From NCBI RefSeq assembly GCF_013408795.1, contig NZ_JACCCC010000001.1, positions 5,518,001-5,582,000 of the forward strand: a stretch of 64,000 nucleotides of DNA, given 5' to 3'. A model generated the notes under the pieces. That model did not search any database and was not told the DNA's origin. It worked only from the letters and a program-made list of their open reading frames with translations. Position 1 is the first letter of the stretch, and every line of letters begins with the position of its first letter. Source of the stretch: Spinactinospora alkalitolerans. GTDB lineage: Bacteria > Actinomycetota > Actinomycetes > Streptosporangiales > Streptosporangiaceae. Shown piece after piece: positions 43,037 through 46,485 of this stretch. The position numbers and the translations under genes are program-made.

Positions 43037-43208
43037 GGCTGCTCACGGCCTCCCTCGTCGCCGGTGCCCTCTGCGGGCCTGTCCATGGATACAAACGTCC
43101 GGATCGGGGTCGTGCGTTCCCGAAGTGCGGCGATGAAGTTCACCGGATCATCGGATCACGGAGTGTGATATGCCCCACCCGTGCCGTACTCCGCATCGGA
43201 GCACAACC

Positions 43209-43214
43209 TATAGT
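43209..43214 (+). promoter_or_regulatory. -10 element for the leader peptide/korAB transcript
   Basis: TATAGT ends 7 nt before the GTG at 43222, so the transcript would start at or next to that codon (leaderless). No convincing -35 was seen. Confidence 0.5.
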
Positions 43215-43221
43215 TGCAAGG

Positions 43222-43320
43222 GTGGCCGCTATCACCTCGACCGGAACGCCTGGCGCCCTGCTCGTCGGCAGGCGGCACGTGGACCTCGCTCGGATCGCCA
43301 GCGCGCTGTGTAGCCGCTGA
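43222..43320 (+). CDS. Putative 32-aa leader peptide upstream of korAB
   Basis: The short ORF encodes a peptide ending in RRHVDLARIASALCSR. The HVDLxRxxSAxC ending matches the actinobacterial putative leader peptides that I recall upstream of sulfur-related and some other genes, where a C-terminal Cys codon senses cysteine supply. It starts at GTG directly after a TATAGT -10 box, hence probably leaderless. Between its stop and korA lie 254 nt that could hold an attenuator. A poor 42-codon hydrophobic frame there (43363-43489) was not accepted as a gene. KorAB contains Cys-ligated Fe-S clusters, which gives a rationale for cysteine sensing (inference). Confidence 0.6.
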   Translation: MAAITSTGTPGALLVGRRHVDLARIASALCSR

Positions 43321-43574
43321 CGCGTTCGGTGATCACGTCGGCCCGGCCGCCCCCACGGGAGTGCCTCGATTTGCGGGCGTGATAATCCTGTTCATCATTA
43401 TTCTATTCATCCGCGGCGATCCCCCTGCGCCCGCGGGCGCAGGAGACGCCCACCGCAACCCCGAAACCCGCCTCACGGCCGAACCCTGACCGGCCGCTCG
43501 CCCCGCGGCGAGGCCGAGGCAGTTCCACGAGCCGTCCCGCGCATGGCGGCTTCCCTAGGAGGTCGGCGATCTCA

Positions 43575-45417
<1,843 letters not shown>

Positions 45418-45428
<11 letters not shown>

Positions 45429-46485
45429 GAACGGATTCAATCCCGAGGAAGGGTTCCGCGGGCTGAAGCTGGTGCCGCGCAGCGACACCGCCTACAAGAT
45501 GAAGGACTTCAAGTCCGACCAGGAGGTCCGCTGGTGCCCGGGATGCGGTGACTACGCGGTCCTGGCGGCGTTCCAGGGGTTCCTGCCCGAGCTGGGCGTG
45601 CCGCGGGAGAACATCGTCATCATCTCCGGCATCGGCTGCTCGTCCCGGTTCCCCTACTACCTGAGCACCTACGGCATGCACTCGATCCACGGGCGCGCGC
45701 CGGCGATCGCGACGGGCCTGGCGGCGAGCCGGCCGGACCTGTCGGTGTGGGTGGTCACGGGTGACGGCGACGGGCTGTCCATCGGCGGCAACCACCTGAT
45801 CCACGCGCTGCGGCGCAACGTCAACATCAACGTGCTGCTGTTCAACAACCGCATCTACGGGTTGACGAAGGGGCAGTACTCGCCGACGTCGGAGCCGGGC
45901 AAGGTCACCAAGTCCTCGCCGATGGGGTCGCTGGACTCCCCGTTCAACCCGGTGTCGCTGGCGCTGGGCGCCGAGGCCGGGTTCGTGGCGCGCACCGTCG
46001 ACTCCGACCGCAAGCACCTGACCGGCGTGCTGCGCGCGGCGGCCGACCACCAGGGCGCCTCTTTCGTCGAGATCTACCAGAACTGCCCGATCTTCAACGA
46101 CGACGCGTTCGAGCCGCTGAAGGACCCGGCCGAACGCGACATGCGGGTGCTGCGGATGGAGCACGGCGAACCGCTGCGCCTGGGCGGCGACCGCGGGATC
46201 GTGCAGGGCGAGTACGGCGAGCTGACCGTGGCCGACGTCGCGGAGGCTGGCGAGGACCGGCTGGTCCGCCACGACGCGCACCGCGCCGACCCCGGCTACG
46301 CGTTCGCGCTGTCCCGGCTGGACTACCCGGCGTTCGACCACGTCCCGATCGGCGTCTTCCGCTCCGTCGAGCGGCCCAGCTACGACGAGCTGATGGCCGA
46401 GCAGGTCACCGAGGCGGAGACGGTCCAGGGCCGCGGTGACCTGGCGGCGCTGCTCGCCAGCGGCGACACCTGGACGGTGGACTGA
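45418..46485 (+). CDS. korB: 2-oxoglutarate:ferredoxin oxidoreductase, beta subunit
   Basis: The 355-aa thiamine diphosphate-binding subunit has the Fe-S and TPP motifs expected: WCPGCGDYAVL near residue 39, GIGCSSRFPYY near residue 70, and GDGDGLSIGGNHLIHALRRN near residue 115 followed by NNRIYGLTKGQ. A further Cys is in YQNCPIF. The GTG start lies inside the end of korA (11-nt overlap), so translation is coupled. The operon ends at the 46508-46549 hairpin. Confidence 0.95.

Follow-up and report, generated by a model that had tools for sequence, protein, structure and literature searches.

Why should korAB, the genes of a 2-oxoacid:ferredoxin oxidoreductase, be preceded by a short ORF whose peptide resembles those found in front of sulfur-related genes, and what could a single cysteine codon in this ORF mean for an enzyme of central metabolism? 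Below, we examine the leader ORF, its spread among relatives, the selection acting on it and its other targets, and we propose a mechanism and weigh it against the alternatives.

Results and discussion

A predicted leaderless leader ORF upstream of korAB

In the window, that is, the whole 64-kb stretch of DNA analysed, the GTG codon at 43222-43224 lies 7 nt 3' of a TATAGT element and opens an ORF of 32 codons (complete translation VAAITSTGTPGALLVGRRHVDLARIASALCSR) that ends in RRHVDLARIASALCSR and closes with a TGA whose last nucleotide is 43320; the leader stop is separated by 254 nt from korA, which starts with GTG at 43575 (Table 1). On all these points, a direct reading of the sequence agrees with the earlier note. 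The ORF contains one Cys codon, TGT at 43309-43311. The korA product scores 661.9 bits against TIGR03710 (cut-off 482.75), and the korB product, in which a TPP domain was found, scores 250.1 bits against TIGR02177, slightly below the cut-off of 261.9. A scan for leader-type ORFs, defined as TAnnnT followed at 5-9 nt by a start codon that opens a short ORF loosely matching RxHVDLxR..C, picked out a single instance in the window itself and no instance in 60 windows simulated with a first-order Markov model, so that a chance presence of the leader is rejected. Between the leader and korA, at 43380-43443, an AT-rich stretch gives way to a perfect GC palindrome of 20 nt (43424-43443) that lacks a U-tract. 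The GC hairpin adjoining the korA ribosome-binding site is also present, as judged by eye, in group A relatives (defined below) among the alignment rows listed.

Table 1. Features of the leader and korAB locus in the window
Feature	Coordinates	Strand	Basis
-10 element TATAGT of the leader promoter (P1)	43209..43214	+	read from sequence
Leader peptide ORF, 32 codons, GTG start, predicted leaderless	43222..43320	+	sequence; NF042934 34.5 bits
Conserved core RRHVDLARIASALC	43270..43311	+	HMM match residues 13-30; pN/pS
Core Cys codon TGT, candidate sensor codon	43309..43311	+	TGT constant in korA and sirA leaders
Spacer between leader and korA, C > G	43321..43574	+	no U-tract terminator found; folding not unusual
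GC hairpin (AGCCG..CGGCT) immediately 5' of the korA ribosome-binding site	43529..43551	+	alignment by eye
korA Shine-Dalgarno AGGAGG	43557..43562	+	read from sequence
korA, 2-oxoacid:ferredoxin oxidoreductase alpha subunit	43575..45428	+	TIGR03710; POR, POR_N
korB, beta subunit, overlapping the korA end	45418..46485	+	TIGR02177 just below cut-off; TPP_enzyme_C

A known kind of leader with a new target

The leader peptide matches the NCBIfam family NF042934, 'putative leader peptide', with 34.5 bits (E 1e-8), over the cut-off of 27, and the same family is matched at E<=0.01 by 37 of the 40 korA leaders described in the next section. The likeness to NF042934 (cis_reg_atten) comprises the core HVDLxR..LC, the shortness of the ORF and its place in front of an operon, codirectional with korA and 113-381 nt upstream of it in the 40 loci; these features recur in the sirA leaders found in the same genomes. 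The difference lies in the target, which here is a 2-oxoacid:ferredoxin oxidoreductase, neither a sulfur enzyme nor a transporter; the text of the family entry mentions neither a target nor UGU.

The leaderless polycysteine sORFs Ms4527A and Ms5788A of mycobacteria (Canestrari et al. 2020, as presented in the available parts of PMC9031893, PMC9094748 and PMC13236596) share with the korA leader a predicted leaderless start, Cys near the stop codon and an association with cysteine-linked operons. They differ in their target and in their runs of Cys codons, which are absent from the window leader with its single TGT, and the scores of the latter against the mycobacterial polycysteine families NF042936 (23.2 bits) and NF042933 (18.4 bits) fall below the cut-off of 45 bits in both cases. 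For M. smegmatis, the accessible text of PMC9031893 describes attenuation that is set by the speed of the ribosome at Cys codons. Earlier still, Seliverstov et al. 2005 predicted Cys leader peptides before cys operons, without evident terminators, and suggested the involvement of Rho (PMC1262725, in the part available). These predictions resemble the present case in the leader ORF, the Cys near the stop, the lack of an evident terminator and the idea of Rho, and differ from it in the Cys codon runs of the leaders in Mycobacterium, P. acnes and B. longum; the available part of that paper does not mention korA. The leader family and cysteine attenuation are thus already known (PMC4633059, PMC1262725, PMC9031893 and PMC13236596, in the parts available). 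In a literature search over titles and the openings of abstracts, with few subscription papers covered, none of the papers found dealt with a leader of korA or with the constant UGU discussed below. Therefore, the leader kind itself is known, and what is new is korA as its target together with the constancy of UGU, which we did not find described.

Conservation of the leader upstream of korA

We sought korA in 100 genomes, including that of the window, and obtained matches in 96 at E<=0.001; with a weak partial match (G013) and weaker second matches elsewhere left aside, the upstream DNA was read at 96 loci in 95 genomes. A leader precedes korA at 40 of these loci, 54 are without one, and at 2 the available sequence is too short. 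All 40 leaders belong to the window's own family, each in another genus, so that among the 60 family genomes read, 40 loci carry the leader, 19 lack it and one is too short; in other families, 35 loci lack it, one is too short and none carries it. The start codon is GTG in 40/40, and the -10 element, 6-8 nt from the GTG in every case, is TATAGT in 37 and another TAnnnT in 3, whereas the leader-finding script had demanded some TAnnnT at 5-9 nt and not TATAGT as such. Four leaders were added by hand to 36 found by pattern, namely, L024 and L033, in which the motif is degenerate, L032, where Tyr replaces Cys, and L109. By their peptides, the leaders were sorted into groups A (18) and B (22), with L048 (G036) in group B though KorA places it elsewhere. 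The sequence GGAGGTCGGCGATC serves as the korA Shine-Dalgarno at 12/18 group A loci and at 0/22 group B loci. Among the korA upstreams that lack the leader or are too short (56), a scan for leaderless ORFs found nothing; a looser search for the bare motif hit 3 of them, and 2 of the 29 examined in named records, where the motif stood in long open frames that no such promoter preceded.

In a KorA tree of 70 rows (38 with the leader, 31 without, one undecided), from which G048 and G051, where korA is in pieces, and 23 leaderless out-of-family loci were omitted, the leader occupies two supported clades (21 rows; 16 rows plus the undecided one) and one genus of a third. This distribution implies at least 3 changes, compared to a mean of 22.9 upon shuffling, and none of 500 shuffles was as low. 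Among 80 named korA records, many from genomes that are also in the genome set, the pattern gave 24 matches, of which 23 are real leaders and one (L246, without promoter or HVDL) is spurious. The carriers include Thermobifida fusca (L180), Streptomonospora, Actinorugispora, Allonocardiopsis, Microbispora, Nonomuraea and Sphaerisporangium; Actinomadura logoneensis (L208) adds one korA leader located farther upstream, and no korA leader was seen in the records of Streptomyces, Kitasatospora, Embleya, Catenulispora and Geodermatophilus among those listed.

Nocardiopsis presents another facet of this history. The HVDL peptide has been lost from 26 named korA upstreams of this genus (among L190-L226; N. 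alba, L202, is one of them), of which 23 keep TATAGT-GTG and 12 keep a short ORF ending in Cys-Arg, with TGT for the Cys; further Nocardiopsis records have the full korA leader. These 26 upstreams form a natural loss series for the leader peptide. Two korA leaders, L032 and L187, which may come from one genome, combine an intact promoter with a HIDLCR core in which Tyr (TAT in L032) stands for the core Cys, a natural Cys-less leader. The outcome that the earlier note named as refuting, a peptide not conserved before korA in sister species, did not occur, albeit with reservations: 40/60 family loci carry the leader, 19/60 are without it, and the HVDL peptide has disappeared from the 26 Nocardiopsis records.

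Could the leader be a chance or vestigial feature, with korAB driven by a promoter nearer to korA? Such a scenario would accommodate the loss of the peptide in many Nocardiopsis and the TAnnnT boxes that lie 63-84 nt before korA in 21/22 group B and 9/18 group A loci (17/54 leaderless loci have one at 60-85 nt); these boxes may represent a second promoter (P2) that bypasses the leader, most clearly in group B. It runs, however, against the conservation of the leader across 40 genomes of 40 genera and the protein-level constraint on it, and in the window there is no TAnnnT at the 63-84 nt place, so that we consider it very unlikely. In the group B upstreams L034-L058 and L071, a block GGATCTAGCATG, 63-84 nt before korA, resembles the -10 of a second, leader-free promoter.

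Selection on the peptide

The leader core yields pN/pS values of 0.53 in group A (15 sequences, without L024, L032 and L033) and 0.22 in group B (21 sequences, without L048), compared to 0.75 for the group A segment upstream of the core and 0.89-2.72 for the core read in shifted frames. In the HVDLxR of group B, H, V, D and R are constant (22/22) and L nearly so (21/22) while the codons vary; group A is looser, and the sirA leaders resemble group B, save for an L/F exchange. Because the core is conserved as residues with varying codons and low pN/pS, the amino acids matter: as judged from these alignments, the leader is constrained as a peptide and not as RNA alone. Thus, the proposal of the earlier note, a predicted leaderless, Cys-bearing leader tied to korA, is well supported from four sides, that is, the match to NF042934, the spacing between -10 and GTG, the conserved place and the protein-level constraint.

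Retention of HVDLxR as amino acids despite synonymous change is not needed by plain hungry-codon attenuators and would be natural for an arrest peptide that senses thiol, sulfide or the redox state via the exit tunnel, with UGU required for the geometry of arrest. We hold this to be improbable given that 12 of the 26 Nocardiopsis loci without HVDL keep the short ORF ending in Cys(UGU)-Arg, which implies that HVDL and Cys(UGU) are separable.

A constant UGU codon

The core Cys codon is TGT in 39/39 Cys-bearing korA leaders, the 40th (L032) having TAT for Tyr, and in 59/59 Cys-bearing sirA leaders, in which the first Cys follows the His by 8-13 residues and of which the 60th (G034) has lost the Cys. 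In that upstream (L163), from an incomplete genome, RRHVDFLRIRSAI is kept and the core Cys is replaced, either in reality or through a sequence error. TGT also occupies this place in three other leaders of the window genome and in all 30 leaders read from 37 matches in 6 of the same genomes, in front of various genes, with 8 of the 30 being korA or sirA leaders already counted. By contrast, non-core Cys codons are mostly TGC (TGC 20 : TGT 4 in the korA leaders, TGC 27 : TGT 10 in or near the sirA leaders), and so are those of the korA coding region (TGC 30 : TGT 1), where third positions are 95% GC. Fisher tests of TGT constancy gave 8e-13 and 7e-16, kinship being ignored. A hungry-codon sensor would be expected to place just such a Cys codon, rare and wobble-read, where cysteine is sensed. 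The trpL and leuL attenuators likewise contain a sensor codon that is read by the ribosome within a leader ORF, with a rare codon for sensitivity, and the rare Leu codons of leuL offer a direct parallel; they differ in their intrinsic terminator, of which none was found at the korA leader.

Other targets of the same leader

Searched with NF042934, the window genome gives 3 matches above the cut-off and a further 2, of lower score, at E<=0.01. Besides korA, its leaders precede sirA-cysH-cbiX (domains NIR_SIR, PAPS_reduct and CbiX), a rhodanese-type sulfurtransferase, an SsuE-like FMN reductase that adjoins a class-V aminotransferase, and an SDF-family symporter, with 2 of these 4 leaders scoring below the cut-off. 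The statement in the earlier note that HVDLxRxxSAxC peptides precede sulfur-related genes is borne out by these copies in the genome itself. The nearest solved structure to SirA, 1zj8, was deposited as a probable ferredoxin-dependent nitrite reductase, NirA; because cysH and cbiX adjoin sirA, the reductase probably acts on sulfite. In relatives, further leaders precede TauD, NMT1-type binding proteins, a Cys/Met PLP enzyme and an ABC permease, and, in one case, a helicase-like ORF. Among the targets that can be named, korAB is the sole enzyme of central metabolism.

A sirA leader with Cys is present at 59 of 60 loci read, drawn from 86 matched genomes and including 40 chosen for having a korA leader; the 59 include four from genomes outside the family whose korA has no leader (G061, G067, G076 and G081). 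Given this wider spread of the sirA leader, korA seems to have recruited its leader later.

KorAB-type enzymes contain Fe-S clusters, and the earlier note saw in the cysteine requirement of these clusters the reason for the control of korAB, a possible reason that would rather predict lowered korAB at cysteine shortage. The same cysteine-sensing leader would then match an Fe-S enzyme to the supply of cysteine. One target is unexpected for a switch that responds to starvation: in a relative, an HVDL leader lies 36 nt upstream of a cysteine dioxygenase-like gene (CDO_I; L318:1501-2091), which indicates that some targets are unlike starvation genes and would be compatible with this purpose. However, the targets in the window genome include sulfite reduction and sulfur transfer, expected to rise at cysteine shortage, and the M. 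smegmatis precedent, as far as PMC9031893 is available, is attenuation by ribosome speed at Cys codons; we regard the Fe-S purpose as rather unlikely. About 1 kb further along L318 there is another leader match, of lower score.

The step downstream of the leader

A simple consensus scan of 43050-43700 for intrinsic terminators gave 0 terminator-like sites, and the palindrome at 43424-43443 is ruled out as a terminator by its lack of a U-tract. An Rfam search of 43100-43700 at E<=1 yielded no match, and a known riboswitch is rejected on this account. Folding of the region between leader and korA, a check proposed in the earlier note with alternative hairpins in mind, did not reveal unusual structure: the leader mRNA has a z of -0.60, and 31/100 shuffles fold as well. 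In a thermodynamic model applied to 40 sequences, the exposure of the korA Shine-Dalgarno with the leader free, with a ribosome at Cys and with a ribosome at the stop is 0.23/0.24/0.25 in group A and 0.29/0.32/0.30 in group B; that is, a ribosome at Cys or at the stop causes no consistent shift in the model, with single loci varying both ways. The distance from Cys to the stop is 2-16 codons in 39/40 leaders (at most 9 in 38; 53 in L109), and due to this short distance, stalling and finishing positions are nearly alike for simple hairpin models. Two further candidates were rejected. A pairing of leader blocks GACCTC and GATCGCC with the korA site GGAGGTCGGCGATC, noticed by eye, has the blocks wrongly ordered for one helix and showed no consistent effect in the mask model. 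An iron box near korA, an idea that came from AAGGTAAGCCTAA-like stretches in L032, L048 and L109, was found at 0/40 loci (19-mer with <=7 mismatches to an iron-box consensus).

What does distinguish the spacers is their composition: C exceeds G over the leader loci (0.387 vs 0.304) and in the window (0.407 vs 0.294), and the difference of C minus G is 0.085 in leader spacers compared to 0.002 in leaderless korA upstreams and 0.035 in the DNA 5' of the same loci's promoters. The excess of C over G is a hint of Rho, and the Rho-dependent leaders of the TnaC type would be alike in a possible stall near the stop and a possible Rho site downstream. The C-rich spacer and the absence of a specific RNA structure would also suit a leader that is mainly a translated 5' segment coupling RNA polymerase and ribosome on C-rich RNA, thereby relieving polarity, with cysteine a weak modulator. 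This alternative leaves unexplained the UGU that is constant in 98/98 Cys-bearing korA and sirA leaders, as well as the constrained HVDLxR core, and has, in our view, a low probability.

A putative cysteine attenuator for korAB

Combining these observations, we find it probable that the korA leader is a leaderless attenuator in which korAB expression rises while a ribosome waits at UGU for its Cys-tRNA, perhaps to supply reduced ferredoxin for the reduction of sulfite. The ORF, its family, its conserved place, the constraint on the peptide, the constant UGU and the leader shared with sirA are observations; we infer the leaderless start, the pausing, the cysteine signal, the direction of the response, the part of Rho and the ferredoxin logic. 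The korAB mRNA would begin with the start codon of the ORF, which would thus be translated from the very 5' end as a leader peptide gene acting in cis. At low levels of Cys-tRNA, the ribosome would wait at UGU near the end of the ORF, with HVDLxR, located 6-11 residues behind the awaited Cys and hence inside the exit tunnel, possibly strengthening the pause, and korAB would be expressed. With ample Cys-tRNA, the ribosome would finish and leave the C-rich stretch bare, whereupon transcription or translation of korAB would be reduced, perhaps via Rho. In this manner, korAB would join the cysteine regulon along with sulfite reductase.

The probable purpose of such an arrangement is the oxidation of 2-oxoglutarate to provide reduced ferredoxin for sulfite reduction. 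Each sulfite costs a sulfite reductase of the ferredoxin type six electrons, drawn from ferredoxin, which in turn is reduced by KorAB-type enzymes. Given that korA and sirA carry the same leader, electron supply appears to be the simplest reason for the control of korAB, and, because the logic of an attenuator raises korAB at low Cys-tRNA, ferredoxin supply fits better than the Fe-S reason. More tentatively, and with greater doubt, HVDLxR and the single UGU could together constitute a nascent-chain-assisted, one-codon sensor of Cys-tRNA that was ancestrally recruited to korAB in Streptosporangiaceae/Nocardiopsidaceae, which we take, from the genera of the named records, to be the leader-bearing group, and that, at cysteine shortage, diverts 2-oxoglutarate oxidation to reduced ferredoxin for sulfite reductase.

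Implications

If this scheme is valid, one cis element would place sulfite reductase and a ferredoxin-reducing enzyme of central carbon metabolism under the control of sulfur supply, a direct link between sulfur status and a step of the TCA cycle, of which many Nocardiopsis species would be natural loss mutants. The constant UGU and the tunnel-placed HVDLxR make one-codon sensing of Cys-tRNA a testable proposition for a family so far annotated only as 'putative', and korAB would become a concrete candidate for the source of electrons for actinobacterial sulfite reductase.
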